Source of the DNA: Hydrogenobacter sp.
Lineage (GTDB): Bacteria; Aquificota; Aquificia; Aquificales; Aquificaceae
NCBI GenBank assembly: GCA_041287335.1
Contig: JBEULM010000038.1
Span: forward strand, 1-41,505
Direction: 5' to 3'
DNA: 41,505 bases
The number at the start of each line of letters is the position of its first letter. The first letter of the stretch is position 1. Position numbers and translations under genes: made by a program. Below, in pieces: positions 28,488-41,505 of this stretch. A model generated the notes under the pieces. That model was not told the DNA's origin, made no database searches, and saw nothing but the letters and a program-made list of their open reading frames with translations.

Positions 28488-30389
28488 TCAGTAACATACA
28501 TTAGCACCTTGCACTTTCACTTCAACTATTTCTTGCCCTTCGGTGTTGTAAAGATGGGTAGAACAAGCAAGGCAAGGATCAAAGGAGTGTATACCCCTCA
28601 GAACTTCAAGGGGTTTATCCACGACCTTAATAGGCGTATCTTTCATACATTCTTCAAAAGCACCCTGCCCTCCCATAGGATCTCTTGGTGAACCGTTCCA
28701 TGTAGTTGGAACTACGCATTGATAATTAGCTATCTTTCCGTCTTTTATTATCACCCAGTGGCCAAGGGCACCTCTTGGTGCATCTGTTATACCTACACCT
28801 TTCGCTTCTTTTGGCCATGTAGAAGGATCCCACTTTTCCATATTTGCAACGGATGTGTCTCCAGCCTTTATATTGTCGTAAAGTTTTTTCAAAAAGTAAA
28901 GATTTGCTGAAACACCCAACTGCGCTTCAAGTCCCCTTGCAGCGGTTCTTCCTACTGTTGTAGGTAGCCATACATGAGGAGGTATATCAAGCACCTTAGA
29001 TACTAAATCTATCTGCTTGACCACCATTTCATCCATCCAGCTCGGCTTTATATGACCTTGCTTTACTCCGGTATAGACCACTATATACCTTGCCAGAGGT
29101 CCCACCTCGCAAGGTTTTCCTCTCCATCTTGGAGACTTTATCCAAGAGTACTTGCCCTGTTCGTCAAGGTACTTCCACTGGGTCTTTGTCCCTTCTTTTG
29201 GTCCTGTATAATTGGGTTCGGTGATGCCATCCCAAGGATGCAGTCCCTTTGTCTCGTCAGGATACTTGTACCAGGAATGAGCTACAAACTCCTGTATAAT
29301 GCCAGGGTCCGCAAAATCCTTGCCTACAAGAGGGTAATACTTAGCTTTGTCCACACCTTCCGCAAAATTTTCTACAACACCGTTGCAGTGGTAAAGTATC
29401 TTGCTGTGATAATCTCCTGTCTTTATACCTTTGTAAGGCTCATCGGGAAACTCACCGTATCCTAATGTCCTCTTCTTTGCAAGTCCTCCACCGTAAACCT
29501 GCCCTTTCTGTGCGTATATGTGCCCTATAGCTAAAAGATCAATAAGGTAAAATAGATTCACCGCTTCAGCCTGAGTGTATATGGCATCCTCAACTACCGC
29601 AAGCCTTTCCGTGTTTATCGGAGCGTTCATATCGTTCATGGATATGGAACAGGTCATCCCACCCACCAAGTAATGAGGATGGGGATTTTTACCTCCGAAA
29701 ATAACTTGAGGAATAAAGAGTTCCCTTTGGACATCAAGCATGTTAAGATAGTGGGCAACAGCCATAAGGTGAACTTCCGGAGGTAACAGTTTGTAATCAG
29801 GGTGATCCCACCAGTGAGCGGCAAATATACCAAGCTGTCCACTTTCCACTATCTTCTTTATCTTTTCTTGGAAGGCTCTAAAATACCCAGGCGTCGCTTT
29901 AGGGAACTTTTTGGGATAAGCTCTATGTCCTATCGGGTCCGGCATAAGTTCTGCAATTGCTCCATATTTTTCAAGGAGCTGGTTTTGAAGTACTGCAGTT
30001 TGAACCGGATCAGCTTTTAAAGCTTCCACAGGAGAAACCCAGTCAAGGGCATGAAGGTGGTAAAAATGTACCAAGTGGTCATGCACCTGCAGAGAGCCAT
30101 ACATGATGTTTCTGATATAGTTTGCGTTTTTGGGAATCTGGATTTCAAGGGCATCCTCTATGCACTTTACGGATGCGTAAGCGTGAATAGATGTACATAC
30201 TCCACATATCCTTTGAGCAAAAGCCCAGGCATCCCTTGGGTCTCTTCCGCGCAGTATGAGTTCAATACCTCTCCACATAGTACCTGAGGACACAGCATCC
30301 TGAACCTTCCCTGACTTCTCATCCACAATAAGCTCAATCCTCAGGTGTCCCTCAATTCTTGTTACTGGATCAACTACCACCCTTGCCAT
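28488..30389 (-). CDS. hupL: Group 1 [NiFe]-hydrogenase large subunit
   Basis: The 633-residue catalytic subunit of the membrane-bound uptake hydrogenase. It begins 'VVDPVTRIEGHLRIEL', has the first nickel ligands in RICGVCTSIHAYASVKCIED and the second pair in FDPCLACSTH. The 20 or so residues after that His form the tail removed by HupD. The protein is exported folded, carried by the Tat signal of HupS. AAAGGAGG before the ATG is a strong ribosome site, 17 nt after the hupS stop. Confidence 0.97.
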   Translation of the reverse strand: MARVVVDPVTRIEGHLRIELIVDEKSGKVQDAVSSGTMWRGIELILRGRDPRDAWAFAQRICGVCTSIHAYASVKCIEDALEIQIPKNANYIRNIMYGSLQVHDHLVHFYHLHALDWVSPVEALKADPVQTAVLQNQLLEKYGAIAELMPDPIGHRAYPKKFPKATPGYFRAFQEKIKKIVESGQLGIFAAHWWDHPDYKLLPPEVHLMAVAHYLNMLDVQRELFIPQVIFGGKNPHPHYLVGGMTCSISMNDMNAPINTERLAVVEDAIYTQAEAVNLFYLIDLLAIGHIYAQKGQVYGGGLAKKRTLGYGEFPDEPYKGIKTGDYHSKILYHCNGVVENFAEGVDKAKYYPLVGKDFADPGIIQEFVAHSWYKYPDETKGLHPWDGITEPNYTGPKEGTKTQWKYLDEQGKYSWIKSPRWRGKPCEVGPLARYIVVYTGVKQGHIKPSWMDEMVVKQIDLVSKVLDIPPHVWLPTTVGRTAARGLEAQLGVSANLYFLKKLYDNIKAGDTSVANMEKWDPSTWPKEAKGVGITDAPRGALGHWVIIKDGKIANYQCVVPTTWNGSPRDPMGGQGAFEECMKDTPIKVVDKPLEVLRGIHSFDPCLACSTHLYNTEGQEIVEVKVQGANVCY

Positions 30390-30406
30390 GCTTTTACCTC
30401 CTTTAT

Positions 30407-31453
30407 TTATTTGGATCTGATCTTGGAAATCACACCGTGAGCAATTGCACCAGCAGCTGCCGCTGCTGTAACAACAGCTCCAACCTTGTCAGGGCTTGCT
30501 TCAACGTTAGGTAATGGAATAGTTGTAAGCCTCTGATAAAAGGGGCTTTTGTCCCAGAAATCCTCTTCAGCACAGCCTATACAACCGTGACCAGCTTGAA
30601 TAGGATAAGAGAGACCGTTGTACCAACGTATGTTTCCGCAAGAGTTGTATGTCGTAGGTCCTCTGCATCCCATCTTGTAAAGACACCATCCCTTTTTAGC
30701 TCCATCGTCATCAAACTTCTCCACAAACTGACCTGCATTGAAAAAGGCTCTTCTGTAGCACGTATCGTGTATACGATTACCGTAAAACTGCTTAGGTCTT
30801 CCCTGAGAATCAAGAGGTGGTATAGAATCAAAAAGAACAAGATACATGATAACACCAGTCATAACTTCAGCTATGGGAGGACAGCCTGGAACTTTTATTA
30901 TAGGCTTGTCCGATATCACCTTGTGTATGGGAACTGCCGTTGTCGGGTTGGGTTTTGCTGCCTGGACGCATCCCCAACTGGCGCATGAACCCCACGCTAT
31001 TACAGCTTTTGCACCTTTCGCAGACTCTTTGAGATTTTCAAGAAAAGCCTTTCCACCCACTACACAGTACATGCCATCTTCACCGAGCGGTGGGTTTCCC
31101 TCAACCGCGAGGATATAGTTTCCCCAGTATTTTTTGATAATTTCCTCCCTATGTCTTTCAAGGGCTTCTCCTGCAGCTGCTGAAAGCGTATCATCGTACT
31201 CAAGGGATATCATGGAAAGCACCACATCCGAGGCAAGCGGTGTGGCTGATCTTATGAAAGATTCCGAACAGCAGGTACACTCAAGACCGTGAATCCACAA
31301 GACTGGTACTCTAGGCTTGGTTTCTAAAGCTTTTACCACCTGAGGTATCATGGAGGGTGACAGACCCATTATACCTGTTATGGTAGTGGCAAATTTTAAA
31401 AAATCCCTCCTGCTAACTCCGTGCCTTTTGAAGGTCTCCCAAAAAGTCTCCAT
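30407..31453 (-). CDS. hupS: Group 1 [NiFe]-hydrogenase small subunit, O2-tolerant type, Tat-exported
   Basis: A 348-residue small subunit. The Tat signal is at residues 14-19 (SRRDFLKF), followed by a hydrophobic stretch and '[15 protein letters not shown]'. The proximal site reads [12 protein letters not shown], with the extra Cys, and '[18 protein letters not shown]' supplies the second extra Cys; these two make the six-Cys [4Fe-3S] cluster of O2-tolerant (group 1d) enzymes. Medial and distal cluster motifs and a C-terminal membrane anchor ('[17 protein letters not shown]') are present. It heads the operon hupS-hupL-hupC-hupD-hyaE-like-hupH-like. AGGAGG stands before the ATG. Confidence 0.97.
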
Positions 31454-35255: not shown

Positions 35256-36038
35256 ATGCATGTCTTACTTGTAGGTTTCGGGAATATGGGTAAAAAGTAT
35301 CTGCTCAAGCTGGAAGAACTCGGCGAATCTCCAATACTGTGCGATAGAGATCCCAAAAAGGCTACTGATAAGTATCCCTTTTATTGTCATATAGGTGATG
35401 TGAAAGAGGAGATTAAGGCGGTTATAATAGCTGTAGAGCCCTCCGAGCATGTTAGCTTATCAAGAATCTTTTTAAAAAGAGGTATTCCTGTACTTCTTGA
35501 AAAACCTCCAGCACTGAATTATGAAGAATTCAAAGAGATATACAGTTATCCAAATCTTTACGTGTCGGAGGTGGAAACCTTCTCCTCTTGCCTACAATAT
35601 TTTCCAAAAGATGTAAAGAGCTTAAACATTGAAAGATTTGGTAAGGGAAAGGGTTATATATCGCCTCTTTGGGATCTCGCATGGCATGACCTTTACCTCC
35701 TTCAGCTGTTTTTTAAAAGCATTGAGTTAAAAAAAATGGATGTGAACCACGTATGGGAGCTAAAAGGTGAGGCTGATGGAGTACCTTTCATTTTGAAGGT
35801 CGCCTGGGAACATCCTGAACCTTCAAGGAGATGGATAATAAATGAGGGTGATTTGGTACTTGATTTTGCGAAAGAAGAGGTCTGGAAAGATGATAAACTC
35901 CTATCTGGTGAAAAAAGGGATAAGCTAAGGATAATGGTGGAAAGGTTTTTAGCCGGAAGATTTGATCAAAAAAGCAAGGAAAGAGCGATGAAGAATCTCT
36001 TACTTTTGGAAGAAGCTGAACGTTTTTTCCGGATTTGA
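35256..36038 (+). CDS. Gfo/Idh/MocA-like NAD(P)-binding oxidoreductase, short
   Basis: A 260-residue Rossmann protein beginning MHVLLVGFGNMGKKYLLKLEEL, with an acid-ended second strand (ILCDRD), 'VIIAVEPSEHV', and LLEKPPAL in place of the EKP motif of Gfo/Idh/MocA enzymes. 'WDLAWHDLYLLQLFF' matches the catalytic His-Asp segment. It is 60-80 residues shorter than typical members because the beta-sheet domain is reduced. The substrate is not predictable; a sugar or cell-envelope metabolite is a reasonable guess. The last 39 nt overlap the convergent sigma-54 activator gene. Confidence 0.72.
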   Translation: MHVLLVGFGNMGKKYLLKLEELGESPILCDRDPKKATDKYPFYCHIGDVKEEIKAVIIAVEPSEHVSLSRIFLKRGIPVLLEKPPALNYEEFKEIYSYPNLYVSEVETFSSCLQYFPKDVKSLNIERFGKGKGYISPLWDLAWHDLYLLQLFFKSIELKKMDVNHVWELKGEADGVPFILKVAWEHPEPSRRWIINEGDLVLDFAKEEVWKDDKLLSGEKRDKLRIMVERFLAGRFDQKSKERAMKNLLLLEEAERFFRI

Positions 36039-37364
36039 TAACCCTTGTAGTATCCTTTTGAGGGTGATCCTGTTTATACCAAGGTATCTTGCGGTTCTTG
36101 AGTAGTTTTCTTCAAAAAAATTAAAGGCTTCCTCAGCTATGATTCGGGAAACTTTTCCCATTAGTTTGTAATATAAACCTTCTTCCCCTCCCCTAAGAAG
36201 CTTTTTTACCTCATCCCTTAAGACATCTTCAAAATTTTGAGGAACGTATTCGCCCGATTCAACATCCAGGTCTTTTTCTTTGAGAATATCCCCTCTGCAT
36301 AAAACCATAGCCCTTTTTAAAGCGTTCTCAAGTTCCCTAACATTACCTGGCCAGCTGTAGTTTAGAGCCTTCCTTAAAAATCCTTCCGTATAACCTGCAA
36401 TCCTTCTGCCAGTTTCCTTAGAGATATTACTCAGTATGCAGTTTATTAGGATGGGAATGTCTTCCCTTCTTTCTCTTAGAGGTGGTATGTATATTTCAAC
36501 TGTACTTATCCTGTAGTAGAGATCCTCTCTAAAAAATCCTTCCTTTACGAGCTTCCTTATATCCTTATTGGTAGCGCATACGAGCCTGAAGTCGCAATGG
36601 ATCTCTTTTGTACTTCCGAGTCTCCTTAGCTTTTTCTCCTGTAGGACCCTCAAAAGCTTAGGCTGTATATGAAGGGGGAGGTCCCCAACCTCATCAAGAA
36701 AAAGCACACCGCCTCTTGCGGATTCTATAAGCCCTTCCTTTGAGGATACAGCTCCGGTAAAAGCTCCTTTTTCGTATCCAAAAAGTTCAGCTTCAAGAAG
36801 CTCCGGAGGTATGGCTGTGCAGTTAACAGCAACAAAAGGAGCGTTCCACCTTTTGGAAGTCTTCCAGAGAGCTTTAGCGAATATCTCCTTACCTACACCT
36901 GTTTCACCGAGAAGGAGCACCGGTACATCAAGAGCTGAAGCCTTACCTATCTTCAAAAGGACTTCTTTCATCCTACCTTCGGGATTTCCTATTATGGAAC
37001 AAAGTTCTTTACAAAGGTCTCCTGACATATCTTCACCTTCAGCAAGAGGTATGATATTATCATCATCCCTTAAACCACCTTCTAAGTCTGCAATAAGTTT
37101 GTTTAGCCTGCGTCTATCAACTGGCTTTAAAAATACATCATAAAAGCCCAAACTTACGAGCTTTATAGTGTATCCGGGTATGCCCTTAGATGTTATAGCC
37201 ACAGGCACATTACCACCTTCTTTAAGGTCCGGAAGGCACGAAAGCCCTACTGTATCTATATCTACCAAAACTAAAGTTCCTGCAAGTTCCTCAGGAAGTT
37301 CCTCAACCTTTTCAAAGCCCTCCACTGAGAGGGACAAGTCCCTCGTGTATAGAAGCCTTTTCAT
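36000..37364 (-). CDS. Sigma-54-dependent transcriptional activator with atypical receiver domain
   Basis: A 454-residue NtrC-family activator. The N-terminal 100 residues look like a receiver: an Asp at 35 (LVLVDIDT), Thr58 and Lys80 (FLKPVD) fit the phosphoacceptor, switch and Lys positions, but the acidic pair that binds Mg2+ near the N-terminus is missing, so normal phosphorylation is doubtful. The AAA+ domain has Walker A GETGVGKE, the sigma-54 contact loop GAFTGA, Walker B 'GGVLFLDEVGDLP' and the arginine-finger region. The C-terminus 'NYSRTARYLGINRITLKRIL' is a Fis-type helix-turn-helix. Being divergent from a sigma-54 promoter at 37455, it most likely controls the sulfate-reduction operon. 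Confidence 0.93.
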   Translation of the reverse strand: MKRLLYTRDLSLSVEGFEKVEELPEELAGTLVLVDIDTVGLSCLPDLKEGGNVPVAITSKGIPGYTIKLVSLGFYDVFLKPVDRRRLNKLIADLEGGLRDDDNIIPLAEGEDMSGDLCKELCSIIGNPEGRMKEVLLKIGKASALDVPVLLLGETGVGKEIFAKALWKTSKRWNAPFVAVNCTAIPPELLEAELFGYEKGAFTGAVSSKEGLIESARGGVLFLDEVGDLPLHIQPKLLRVLQEKKLRRLGSTKEIHCDFRLVCATNKDIRKLVKEGFFREDLYYRISTVEIYIPPLRERREDIPILINCILSNISKETGRRIAGYTEGFLRKALNYSWPGNVRELENALKRAMVLCRGDILKEKDLDVESGEYVPQNFEDVLRDEVKKLLRGGEEGLYYKLMGKVSRIIAEEAFNFFEENYSRTARYLGINRITLKRILQGLSNPEKTFSFFQK

Positions 37365-37454: not shown

Positions 37455-37470
37455 TGGCACATAACTTGCA
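37455..37470 (+). promoter_or_regulatory. Sigma-54 (-24/-12) promoter
   Basis: TGGCACATAACTTGCA carries GG at 37456-37457 and GC at 37468-37469 with exactly 10 nt between them, and matches the full TGGCAC-N5-TTGCA consensus. Transcription should start near 37482, leaving a short leader with AGGAGGT before the ATG at 37494. Confidence 0.88.
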
Positions 37471-37493: not shown

Positions 37494-40145
37494 ATGAAGG
37501 AAGAGCTTGTGGGAAAAAACCCAAGAGAGAAGCTAAAGGCTGAAAAGCATCCTTTGGATATAATTGAGGAGCTTCCCAAGATTATAAAGCAAGGCTATGA
37601 GAACACGCCGGAGGAGGACCTTGTAAGGCTCCAGTGGTATGGGCTTTACCATGACAAGCCAAGGATGGGATACTTCCTTCTTAGGGTAAAAGTGCCTGGG
37701 GGTATTTTAGAGCCAAGGCAGCTCCATGTATTGGGTGAGCTGGCAAAAAGGTTTAACGACTATGCGGAAATAACCTTAAGACAGGATCTACAGCTTCATT
37801 ACATAAGGCTTGAACACCTTCCTGAGGTTTTTGAAAGGCTAAGAGAAGCAGGTCTCTTTCCTGTAGGTGCCTGTGGTGACACAGTCAGGAACATAACCAC
37901 CTGCCCCTTATGTGGGCTTGAAGAAAAGGAGCTTTTTGATGTTAGAAAAACCCTTTATGAGCTTGAAAACTTCTTCCATGACCCTGAAAACAGAGAATAC
38001 TTTAACCTTCCAAGAAAGTTTAAGATAACCCTTTCAGCCTGTCCCTATCACTGCAACATGCCAGAGATGCACGACCTTGCCTTTGTAGGAACAATTCATA
38101 AGGGTAAGGAGGGCTTTGCGGTTTGGGTTGGCGGTGGTCTTTCTTCTACACCAAGGCTTGCAAGAAAGCTTGGTATTTTTGTGGAAAAGGATAGGGTCTG
38201 TGAGGTGGCGATGGCTTTGGTAGAGCTCTGGAGCGAGGAGGATGAAAACAGAAAATCCTTCGTAAAGGCAAGGTTTAAATACATGGTGGATAGGCTCGGT
38301 GTTGAAGGAATAAGGGAAAGGCTTTTGGAAAGGCTGAGCTTTAGACCAGAGGAATTGGAAAAGGAGCCAGAACCTGTAAAAAGATACTTCCATACAGGCA
38401 TAGGAAGGCAGAAGCAGGGAGGTTTTTATTACTTTGGCATTCCCGTGCAGGCGGGAAGGGTAAAGGGAAGCCAGCTTTTAAGCCTCTCAGAACTTGCTCA
38501 AGAGCTTAACCTCTCTGTTAGGCTCTCTCAAAGGCAGAATATCCTGCTGGCAAACATAAGGGAGGAAGACCTGCAAAGGGTTAAGGAAGTGGTAAAAGGG
38601 CTTGGTTTTGAAGTGGATGTGAGCGAAACAAGGGCTATATCCGTAGCCTGCACCAGCGACCCTTTCTGCAACTACTCGGTGGGTCCTGCGAAGGATGCTC
38701 TACTTGAGATACTTGATTACTTAGAAGGTGAGCTTGGAAGGCTTGAGGGTATTAGCATAGGCGTTGATGGATGCCCCCATGCCTGTGCCCACCACTGGCT
38801 AAACGATATAGGCCTTCAGGCAACACACACAAGGCATCCAGATGGCTCGGTGGAAACCACCTACAACCTTGTTTTAAGGGGTGGGTATGGAAAAAGGGCA
38901 AACATAGGAAAGATAATAGCCAAAAAGCTACCCTTAGAAAGGGTAAAGGTCTATTTGAAAAACCTCCTTCTTTCCTTTAAAAACTCTGGGTTTGAAGACT
39001 TTCATGAGTTTTTGAATAAAAAGAGCGATGAGGAGCTTTTAAGCCTTATGGAGGGTAAGGATGTCATGGTGGAGGTTGAAAAAAGGCTTGTAAAGGTGCG
39101 TATATTTGGACCTCTCACACGTTTTTCTGGAGGTCTTTCGGAGGTGGAGCTAAGCGCAAAAACAGTCAGGGAGGCCCTTGAAAGCCTTGAAAGGGAGTTT
39201 GAAGGCTTTAAGGGAAGACTTTTTGACCAAAAGGGAGAGCTAAAGCCCTTTGTAAAGGTCTTTTTAAACGAGGAAGATGTCTCTTACCTGCAGGGTTTGG
39301 AAACAAAACTTAAAGAAGGCGATGAGCTTATGCTCTATCCAGCTCTGGCGGGTGGTGCCCCTTCCTTTGATGAGCTTGAGCTTCACGAGCTTGCCATAGA
39401 CTTTGAGGACAAGACACCTCAGGAACTTATAGCCTGGGCTTTGGAAAACTTCCATCCAAGGCTTTATATAGCTTGGAGCGGTCAGGTTGAGGATATGGTG
39501 CTTTTAGATATGGCTTGGAGGATAAACCCGGAGGTGAGGGTCTTTATGGTGGATACGGGCAGGCTCCACGAAGAGACTTACAGGCTTGCCCAAGAGGTGG
39601 AGGAGAGGTACTGCATAAGTATAGAGGTTTATTTCCCTAAGGCGGAAGATGTGGAGAAGCTCGTGGGTGAGCATGGTATTAACTGCTTTTATAAATCCGT
39701 TGAGTTGAGGCACCTCTGCTGTCATGTGAGGAAGGTAAGACCTCTAATCAGAGCTTTGTCCTGCGTAGATGCTTGGATAACGGGTCTCAGGCGCGAGCAG
39801 TGGGCAAGCAGGCACAACATAATGAAGATTGAGATGGACCATGACCACGGGCAGATAGTGAAGATAAACCCCCTTGCTGACTGGACAGAAAGGGATGTTT
39901 GGGAATACATAAAGAGAAACTATGTTCCTTACAACAGACTTTACGAGAAGGGTTATAGAAGCATAGGTTGTGAGCCTTGTACGAAGGCTGTTGCACCCTT
40001 TGAAGACCCAAGGGCTGGAAGGTGGTGGTGGGAAAAGGACGCACCAAAGGAGTGTGGAATGCACTGCAGTATAGAAACGGGAGGCTTTGAAAAGATTGCG
40101 GACAAACTCTTAAGGGAGGCAAGAGATGGCGATAAGGGTTCTTGA
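37494..40145 (+). CDS. Trifunctional fusion: siroheme sulfite/nitrite reductase, MoaD/ThiS-like domain, APS-type CysH reductase
   Basis: An 883-residue protein with three parts. Residues 1-520 are a ferredoxin-type sulfite/nitrite reductase: 'FNDYAEITLRQDLQLHYI' and 'LSVRLSQRQNILLANI' are the two-fold repeat signatures, and Cys386-x5-Cys392 plus Cys427-x3-Cys431 hold the [4Fe-4S]-siroheme pair. Residues about 530-621 are a ubiquitin-like MoaD/ThiS domain ending YPALAGG (Gly620-Gly621). Residues about 640-883 are CysH: 'YIAWSGQVEDMVLL', 'MVDTGRLHEETY', Cys742-Cys743 and Cys826-x2-Cys829 for a [4Fe-4S] cluster, and catalytic Cys854 in ECGMH, the pattern of APS rather than cluster-free PAPS reductases. 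Together it should take APS to sulfite to sulfide in one chain. The first half also has Cys137/140 and Cys183/187, unusual for this family. Nitrite reduction is an alternative for part one. Confidence 0.9.
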   Translation: MKEELVGKNPREKLKAEKHPLDIIEELPKIIKQGYENTPEEDLVRLQWYGLYHDKPRMGYFLLRVKVPGGILEPRQLHVLGELAKRFNDYAEITLRQDLQLHYIRLEHLPEVFERLREAGLFPVGACGDTVRNITTCPLCGLEEKELFDVRKTLYELENFFHDPENREYFNLPRKFKITLSACPYHCNMPEMHDLAFVGTIHKGKEGFAVWVGGGLSSTPRLARKLGIFVEKDRVCEVAMALVELWSEEDENRKSFVKARFKYMVDRLGVEGIRERLLERLSFRPEELEKEPEPVKRYFHTGIGRQKQGGFYYFGIPVQAGRVKGSQLLSLSELAQELNLSVRLSQRQNILLANIREEDLQRVKEVVKGLGFEVDVSETRAISVACTSDPFCNYSVGPAKDALLEILDYLEGELGRLEGISIGVDGCPHACAHHWLNDIGLQATHTRHPDGSVETTYNLVLRGGYGKRANIGKIIAKKLPLERVKVYLKNLLLSFKNSGFEDFHEFLNKKSDEELLSLMEGKDVMVEVEKRLVKVRIFGPLTRFSGGLSEVELSAKTVREALESLEREFEGFKGRLFDQKGELKPFVKVFLNEEDVSYLQGLETKLKEGDELMLYPALAGGAPSFDELELHELAIDFEDKTPQELIAWALENFHPRLYIAWSGQVEDMVLLDMAWRINPEVRVFMVDTGRLHEETYRLAQEVEERYCISIEVYFPKAEDVEKLVGEHGINCFYKSVELRHLCCHVRKVRPLIRALSCVDAWITGLRREQWASRHNIMKIEMDHDHGQIVKINPLADWTERDVWEYIKRNYVPYNRLYEKGYRSIGCEPCTKAVAPFEDPRAGRWWWEKDAPKECGMHCSIETGGFEKIADKLLREARDGDKGS

Positions 40146-40416
40146 GGTTGTGGATATAAACCTGCTCAAAGAGGAGCTTGAGAAAAGAGGCTGGAAGGAA
40201 GGCAGTTTTAACAAAAAGCCTGCCATGATAAAAGATCTTGGCTCATACCTTTGGTTAGCCTTACTTGAAGAAAAGCCATGTTTTATATCCCTACCTTCCG
40301 AAGAAGACTCAAAGCTTCACAGGGAAGGCATGAGAAGGCTTCAGGAGGAGGTAAAAGAGTTATCTGAAGCTCTTGGCTTCACAATACCTATAAGACTTGG
40401 AGGTTCTAATGTTTGA
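40126..40416 (+). CDS. Small unknown protein of the sulfate-assimilation operon
   Basis: A 96-residue soluble, charged protein, no family recognised. Predicted layout: strand (IRVLEVVD), helix, a central 'GSYLWLALLEEKPCFISLP' with the only Cys, a long helix (about residues 62-84) and a short C-terminus '[10 protein letters not shown]'. The Gly-Gly three residues from the end is noted but the protein does not otherwise look ubiquitin-like. It overlaps the fusion gene by 20 nt and the transporter gene by 8 nt, so it is translated as part of the operon and probably serves sulfate or siroheme metabolism. Confidence 0.65.
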   Translation: MAIRVLEVVDINLLKEELEKRGWKEGSFNKKPAMIKDLGSYLWLALLEEKPCFISLPSEEDSKLHREGMRRLQEEVKELSEALGFTIPIRLGGSNV

Positions 40417-41164
40417 GTATGCACTCTCTGGCTTTTTTATAGCCTTAGCCATAGGCTTGACAGGTGTAGGAGCTGGAACGCTTACCGCACCGCTTTTAAT
40501 CCTTCTGGGGCTTGACCCGGCAAAGGCGGTTGGCTCAGCCCTCAGTTTTTCAGCTTTTGTGAAGTTTCCAGCCTTTGTCTTTCATGCCCTCTATAAAAAT
40601 ATAGATTACAAAACCCTTTTCCTTATGCTTTCTGGCGGTGTGCCTGGTGTCCTTCTTGGCTCCTTTCTACTATCTTTCCTTTCTCATGAAAAGGGTCTGA
40701 AAAATGTCCTCTTCCTTATTATAGGCTTTACTATCCTTCTTAGCATAGCCCTTAACCTTTTTACCACCTTGAGAAATAAAAGGCTTGACCTTACAAGGTA
40801 TAGATTCCTTTTGCCCTTTGCCTGCTTTTTCATCGGGCTTGAGGTAGGTTTTACATCAGCGGGTGCTGGTGCCCTTGGCATGGTCTTACTCCTTTACTTT
40901 ACAAGGCTTGAGCCTTCAAGGGCTGTGGGTGTGGATATAGCTTTCGGCTTAGCTTGTTCTTCTTTTGGTAGTCTTTTCCACTTCCTTGGGAGTAACATAA
41001 ACCCAGAGGTTTTTATTCCCATGTCTTTTGGTGGTCTTCTTGGTGTGTGGCTTGGCACCTACCTAACAAGGAAGATAAATCCAAAGCCTATAAGATTTCT
41101 AATATCCTTCCTCCTGCTCTTGGTGGCAATAAACCTCATAAACAGAGGTATTAACCATGGGTAA
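40409..41164 (+). CDS. TauE/SafE-family sulfur-anion transporter (TSUP)
   Basis: A 251-residue inner-membrane protein with about eight hydrophobic segments and two homologous halves, each opening with a glycine-rich motif ('[30 protein letters not shown]' and '[31 protein letters not shown]'). TSUP proteins move sulfite, sulfate, thiosulfate or organosulfonates; here, import of sulfate or export of surplus sulfite are both plausible. The ATG at 40409 has GGAGG 5 nt upstream; a TTG at 40397 would contain that site. GGC (9 of 28 Gly) and GCC (8 of 20 Ala) are used far more than in hemE (0 of 23 and 1 of 13). Confidence 0.88.
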
Positions 41165-41505
41165 GGTCTATCTCGTAGGGGCAGGACCTGGAGACTTGGA
41201 GCTTTTAACACTTAAAGCCTACAGGCTCATAAGGTCTGCAGATGTTATCCTATACGACAGGCTCGTAAACCCAGAAGTGCTTTTACTCGCAAAGCCTGAC
41301 TGCGAGCTTGTCTATGTGGGAAAGGAGGATGGAAAACATCTCATAGAGCAGGAAAGGATAAACGAGCTTTTGCTTGAGTATGCATATAGCAAAGAGGTAG
41401 TAGTAAGGCTAAAAGGTGGAGACCCCTTCGTCTTTGGAAGGGGTGGAGAGGAAGCCCTCTTTTTGGCACAGCATGGCATAGAGTTTGAAGTGGTTCCGGG
41501 TATAA
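41157..41505 (+). CDS. cobA: Uroporphyrinogen-III C-methyltransferase (SUMT), truncated by the window end
   Basis: The first 116 residues of a SUMT (CobA/CysG-A type), which adds two methyl groups to uroporphyrinogen III to give precorrin-2 for siroheme or cobalamin. It begins [20 protein letters not shown], then '[15 protein letters not shown]' and '[19 protein letters not shown]', all diagnostic; the rest lies beyond base 41505. It overlaps the transporter stop by 8 nt. Its place in the operon is explained by the siroheme needed by the reductase part of the fusion. Whether it continues into a UroS or CysG-B domain cannot be seen. Confidence 0.95.

Follow-up and report, generated by a model that had tools for sequence, protein, structure and literature searches.

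Sulfur carriers and their fusions

The pathway proposed here shares several traits with the cysteine pathway of Mycobacterium tuberculosis (CysO, Mec+ and CysM), namely the fold of the carrier, its Gly-Gly and a JAMM partner. However, CysO is a free protein of 93 aa, whereas the carrier of the Hydrogenobacter locus is covalently joined to both a sulfide-making enzyme and an adenosine phosphosulfate (APS) reductase. A thiocarboxylate pathway to methionine in Wolinella, reportedly described by Krishnamoorthy and Begley in 2011, a study cited in PMC5764234, is said to employ HcyS, HcyD, HcyF and MetY, with a JAMM protease trimming the carrier extension and an E1 enzyme charging the carrier with sulfide from Sir. 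The Wolinella components are separate proteins and not parts of one chain as in the present case, and the MetY-family matches obtained here are limited to weak similarity to the PLP fold.

Fusions of a siroheme sulfite reductase (SiR) to a ThiS-like domain are already known from two examples, in Nocardioides and Acidothermus (Iyer, Burroughs and Aravind 2006, PMC1779556), and represent the nearest described architecture. They resemble the present protein in carrying the ThiS-like domain at the C-terminus of SiR and in their sulfur-assimilation neighbourhoods, but they have no APS reductase (CysH), which in the Aquificaceae protein adds a third catalytic module after Gly-Gly. A further likeness is found in Deinococcus radiodurans, where DRJAMM cuts a linear MoaD-MoaE fusion to expose a C-terminal glycine (PMC8832034; Yang 2018). 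There too a carrier with an internal Gly-Gly precedes an enzyme; however, MoaD-MoaE is a molybdopterin synthase that plays no part in sulfur assimilation, and cleavage, which is proven in that system, is only predicted in this one. No report of a SiR-ThiS-CysH triple fusion or of a repeated origin was found in the open literature searched, in which both the triple fusion and the convergence appear to be undescribed.

Architecture of the fusion protein

The window is a 41,505-nucleotide stretch of a Hydrogenobacter sp. contig (JBEULM010000038.1). It contains a single open frame of 883 codons, preceded immediately 5' of its ATG by AGGAGGT and encoding one 883-aa protein. According to searches of Pfam, NCBIfam and the PDB, its modules are, from the N-terminus onwards, a siroheme sulfite reductase, a ThiS domain and an APS reductase:

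37494..40145, + strand: SiR-ThiS-CysH fusion gene, 883 aa (open frame, Pfam, intact in relatives)
37494..39062, + strand: siroheme/[4Fe-4S] sulfite reductase module, residues 1-523 (Pfam; 1zj8 fold match; K175-x-K177)
39063..39086, + strand: flexible hinge, residues 524-531 (pLDDT <50; columns 506-531 only 23% invariant)
39087..39356, + strand: CysO/SAMP1-like beta-grasp sulfur-carrier domain, residues 532-621 (ThiS E 3.7e-11; 3dwg_C fold match)
39351..39356, + strand: Gly620-Gly621 codons, where thiocarboxylate formation and cleavage are predicted (invariant in fused ThiS domains)
39357..39368, + strand: variable linker APSF, residues 622-625 (0/4 columns invariant; linker start disordered in the model)
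39369..40142, + strand: APS reductase (CysH) module, residues 626-883 (PAPS_reduct; TIGR02055; 2goy fold match)

The joining of a sulfite reductase, a ubiquitin-like carrier and an APS reductase in one frame, as claimed in a preliminary description of this DNA, is thus borne out by the open frame together with the Pfam, NCBIfam and fold matches, which also uphold the identities that the description gave to the domains.

The SiR module is of the two-repeat type, with two stretches each of NIR_SIR_ferr and NIR_SIR (best at 59-119 and 127-282, respectively). It has the features of an assimilatory siroheme SiR of the NirA/SiR superfamily: in addition to the NIR_SIR domains, it carries four cluster cysteines (C386-x5-C392 and C427-x3-C431) and the active-site lysines K175-x-K177, a form that we take to be that of sulfite reductases; tobacco nitrite reductase reads K-W-N at this position, with Asn in place of the second Lys. 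The module scores 339.6 bits against PRK09566, the NCBIfam equivalog of ferredoxin-nitrite reductase, below the curated cut-off of 594. An identity as nitrite reductase is disfavoured by this score, the K-x-K motif, the attached CysH and the operon context. At the other end of the protein, PAPS_reduct matches residues 657-831 (E 6.3e-51), and the CysH module exceeds the cut-off for [4Fe-4S] APS reductases (TIGR02055, 271 bits versus 235.3). Its characteristic motifs (C742C743, C826xxC829 and ECGMH at C854) align with those of 2goy, to which the module is 46% identical in the fold match.

The ThiS match (PF02597; residues 535-621, E 3.7e-11, 43.9 bits versus a cut-off of 22.5) ends on Gly620-Gly621. 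A model of the isolated carrier fragment is a beta-grasp, for which a structure prediction had been proposed earlier, with pLDDT >90 over the first 80 residues and <50 at fragment residues 91-94, which span Gly-Gly and the first linker residues. CysO and SAMP1 are its top fold matches (E about 1e-8), and CysO is the best in the PDB (3dwg_C, E 1.3e-8, TMt 0.86), in agreement with the likeness to CysO noted in the preliminary description. In family sequence and fold, the domain therefore corresponds to the CysO/SAMP1-type carriers of the ThiS/MoaD superfamily; it departs from them in that Gly620-Gly621 is internal in the primary product and does not form a free C-terminus. The full-length protein, modelled with AlphaFold2 from 44 sequences, has a mean pLDDT of 84, with values <50 confined to the joints at 524-531 and 617-624 and to two segments near the C-terminus (856-872 and 879-883). 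Foldseek matches this model to M. tuberculosis NirA (1zj8, E 1.5e-39) and other nitrite/sulfite reductases, followed by the APS reductase 2goy.

Conservation of Gly-Gly

Gly-Gly is invariant in 29/29 fused ThiS domains, whose alignment has just five invariant columns including these two, and no triple fusion departs from it. Within the Aquificaceae fusions all seven columns of YPALAGG are invariant, compared with none of the four that follow (622-625), and invariant columns account for 47% of ThiS and 51% of SiR. Between G003 and G019, dN/dS amounts to 0.07 for ThiS, 0.09 for SiR and 0.04 for CysH, and two closer pairs show zero nonsynonymous changes in ThiS; by these measures, strong purifying selection acts on the carrier, much as on the neighbouring modules.

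The ends of related proteins are informative as well. Outside the Aquificaceae, where a separate cysH is the next gene, most SiR-ThiS proteins stop exactly after Gly-Gly and some bear two-residue tails (AF, GA, GC or AC). The split proteins of Aquificaceae, whose genes are overlapped at their ends by cysH, terminate in ..LAGG plus 2-6 residues (GGAL, GGVS, GGVDNEV, GGVSDEVR). A solo CysO-like carrier, present in the Aquificaceae examined, is encoded in the source genome at L064:7653-7937 (- strand) and ends in PAIAGG-YLT. Its orthologs extend 0-5 variable residues past Gly-Gly, so that most solo carriers would need a trimming protease; the variable tails look as if they were free in sequence and removed.

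Distribution and origin of the fusion

The triple fusion occurs in 9 of 136 Aquificota genomes. Since the frame is intact in all nine, a hidden frameshift or assembly artefact is excluded. Two copies are present in G027, and one full and one partial copy in G085; four genomes (G017, G062, G064 and G066) encode SiR-ThiS with a separate adjoining cysH, and in G063 the CysH part alone was detected at the threshold used. The named matches are Aquificaceae metagenome assemblies, and the fused form is retained across several genera at 69-80% identity. When each species was represented by one genome and a single SiR motif and a single CysH motif served as seeds, a scan yielded 79 loci, 46 of them SiR without ThiS; these counts depend on the seeds and should not be taken as frequencies. 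SiR-ThiS followed by cysH was recovered from at least six other phyla, namely Chloroflexota, Actinomycetota, Acidobacteriota, Rhodothermota, Armatimonadota and Tectomicrobia. The search for the same domain order elsewhere, suggested earlier, added to the nine Aquificota one Anaerolineae genome (L125), in which the linker after Gly-Gly is longer.

Two other arrangements were observed. A different Aquificaceae genus (L063:7809-10694) encodes a 743-aa SiR with an additional C-terminal region of about 200 aa, with a separate cysH next to it. On an Acidimicrobiaceae contig (L151:4640-6886), a single-frame CysH-SiR-ThiS lies downstream of a complete SiR-ThiS and is probably a tandem repeat or a chimeric assembly.

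In 4/4 split Aquificaceae loci (L126, in the region of 3936; L127; L128; L133), the codons GGA GGT of Gly-Gly resemble a Shine-Dalgarno sequence for cysH, the ATG of which overlaps the end of SiR-ThiS, and a small change in length joins both frames. GGAGGT has been retained in three fusions (G014, G027b and L121), together with an in-frame ATG that lies three residues past Gly-Gly and from which free CysH could be produced by internal initiation without proteolysis. This internal start has been lost from the fusion gene of the window and from others on its branch, and no in-frame ATG lies near the CysH start in the fusion genes of G000, G004, G003, G019 and G012.

On the SiR tree, which like the ThiS tree is rooted for drawing only, a single clade of ThiS-bearing SiRs is rejected by an AU test (p-AU 3.7e-39) in which the clade was named after the trees had been seen and long rows were dropped. 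The ThiS tree, built from only 89 alignment columns, groups the fused domains of Aquificaceae with solo carriers, apart from other fused ThiS (100/99). From this evidence, SiR seems to have acquired ThiS on two or more occasions, a single fusion with many subsequent losses being the alternative, and the SiR-ThiS of Aquificaceae would have arisen separately from that found in the other sampled phyla. CysH was appended independently on two lineages, the Aquificaceae and the Anaerolineae genome. The preliminary description had regarded a Gly-Gly between two sequentially acting enzymes as a striking design. Gly-Gly is indeed internal, but its position results from the attachment of a downstream cysH to a SiR-ThiS protein, which in relatives ends at or close to Gly-Gly; the core is therefore SiR-ThiS, and not a design that depends on a Gly-Gly between the two enzymes.

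Candidate partner proteins

A JAMM protease and an E1 enzyme, which the preliminary description had proposed to seek, are each present once in the source genome: the JAMM protein (PF14464, E 1.3e-26) has an intact HxHx7SxxD motif, HSHPDHPDRPSKFD, and the ThiF/MoeB-like E1 (E 1.8e-88) has no rhodanese domain. Fusion-free Aquificaceae also have both, and JAMM extends to genomes with SiR only, so their presence is permissive and not specific; JAMM was found in 36/38 of the SiR-ThiS and SiR-only genomes compared. In G012 the E1 gene belongs to the fusion operon, directly 3' of its sat-like gene; elsewhere, no E1 or JAMM gene was seen beside SiR-ThiS in the Aquificaceae loci read or among the conserved neighbours in other phyla. 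The JAMM gene stands directly beside an aspartate-semialdehyde dehydrogenase-like gene (asd) in 10/12 Aquificaceae, a pair located at L102:1949-3367 (contig C24) in the source genome and at L031-L041 in relatives.

MetB/MetY-like enzymes were not found in the seven Aquificaceae genomes checked. The search for a MetY acceptor (PF01053) returned only partial, weak PLP-fold matches in seven genomes (best 32.7 bits), whereas the controls matched in all 14, and a Wolinella-type HcyS-MetY pathway is rejected on this ground. The DUF39 pathway to homocysteine is likewise rejected, DUF39 being present in 0/10 genomes.

Proposed function and alternatives

The preferred reading, to which a probability of roughly 0.5 is assigned, is that the carrier is tied to its own sulfide source and that cleavage of the triple fusion by JAMM behind Gly621 would expose the acceptor. 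The sulfate-to-sulfide arm of sulfur assimilation would then be one polypeptide built around a sulfur carrier, in which the CysH module would convert APS to sulfite and the SiR module sulfite to sulfide, the latter being accepted by the CysO-like domain hinged to SiR. Because CysH follows Gly-Gly, the primary 883-aa product would be a precursor, from which JAMM would generate SiR-ThiS-COOH and CysH. We infer that the MoeB-like E1 would adenylate Gly621 and that sulfide would attack the adenylate to form a C-terminal thiocarboxylate, which may serve the synthesis of cysteine, homocysteine or cofactors. What sequence establishes is the architecture, the conserved Gly-Gly, free or near-free ends in relatives, the repeated origin and the intact JAMM and E1. 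The invariance of Gly-Gly in fused ThiS, protein ends at or near it, the drop in conservation after Gly621, the purifying selection on the carrier, and a siroheme methyltransferase and sat-like gene in the operon context all favour this reading. So do the repeated joining of ThiS to SiR and of CysH to both, the intact JAMM and the E1 (in G012 within the operon), the tails of most solo carriers and the precedent of DRJAMM. From the free Gly-Gly end of relatives, it seems that sulfide can be handed on only after cleavage of the chain or by reuse of the carrier where it stands. Against it stand a JAMM and an E1 that are not fusion-specific and of which, outside G012, neither was seen beside SiR-ThiS, the possible internal cysH start in three genes and the absence of MetY.

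A serious rival, albeit a rather unlikely one, holds that the chain stays whole and that ThiS is a permanent docking or allosteric module, which holds SiR and CysH together or binds E1 or a sulfhydrylase, Gly-Gly being retained for fold or binding and not for thiocarboxylation. The five fusion genes without an in-frame ATG near the CysH start make an uncut chain the default, and the flexible joints that flank the carrier in the model would suit a swinging or docking module; however, most split relatives end at or just past Gly-Gly, the form required for C-terminal chemistry, conservation falls sharply at Gly621, and the genome also encodes solo carriers and a JAMM. A single mutation, of Gly621, together with a single mass determination would separate the carrier acting in cis from a docking module.

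Less probable still is a near-neutral origin of the fusion as a by-product of translational coupling, in which a small indel removed the stop between overlapping SiR-ThiS and cysH and both halves work as before, with carrier activity lost or taken over by a solo paralog. The overlapping split genes, the double use of GGAGGT, the small length change that separates fused from split forms, the three fused genes that retain GGAGGT and the ATG, and the solo carrier of the Aquificaceae examined would all fit such an origin, but not the persistence of the fused form across several genera, the purifying selection on the carrier with its invariant YPALAGG, or a triple fusion that arose twice. Channelling of APS to sulfite to sulfide in an uncut chain, which had been put forward in the preliminary description, is very improbable as the main selected function: the reactions of the two enzymes follow one another and their modules are joined or neighbouring in the loci read, but CysH is separate in most organisms with SiR-ThiS, and the model, with disordered joints on both sides of the carrier, gives no evidence of a shared cavity.

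A carrier covalently bound to the enzyme that makes its cargo would let cells pass on sulfide without releasing it. Such tethering appears to have evolved at least twice in this family, with the addition of a form that buries the chemically needed C-terminus. An extension of this reading, namely assimilation without free sulfide, in which siroheme sulfide is captured in cis on the enzyme's own ubiquitin-like domain and this carrier, once freed by JAMM from the poly-enzyme precursor, supplies a thiocarboxylate route to cysteine and/or homocysteine that has not been described before, is doubtful; if true, it would go some way towards closing the gap in homocysteine synthesis that has been reported in thermophilic autotrophs, Aquifex and Acidimicrobium among them (PMC5764234). 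The fusion also offers a lead on the homocysteine route of the Aquificaceae, which are hot-spring bacteria.

Genomic context and regulation

The fusion gene is flanked by a predicted promoter, a divergent regulator and further genes on its own strand:

37455..37470, + strand: predicted sigma-54 promoter TGGCAC-N5-TTGCA (near-perfect; the only strict match in the window)
36000..37364, - strand: divergent sigma-54 activator gene, AAA+ NtrC type (Sigma54_activat E 8.4e-67)
40126..40416, + strand: conserved 96-aa ORF overlapping the end of the fusion gene (related ORFs, cluster cl4, in 8 places)
40397..41164, + strand: TauE/SafE-family permease (PF01925 E 9.5e-41)
41157..41504, + strand: uroporphyrinogen-III C-methyltransferase for siroheme synthesis, cut by the contig end (NCBIfam)

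The 96-aa ORF has no Pfam or NCBIfam match. In relatives, the siroheme methyltransferase gene is followed by one that, judging by its sequence, is sat. The motif TGGCAY-N5-TTGCA lies upstream of 12/12 Aquificaceae SiR-ThiS(-CysH) genes, and a divergent sigma-54 activator adjoins the fusion or SiR-ThiS gene in the Aquificaceae loci read, in agreement with sigma-54 sites reported before sulfite reductase in Aquificia (PMC12316311). Further upstream in the window, positions 28488-31453 on the - strand hold a pair of genes that, from sequence alone, were judged to encode the large and small subunits of a [NiFe]-hydrogenase.
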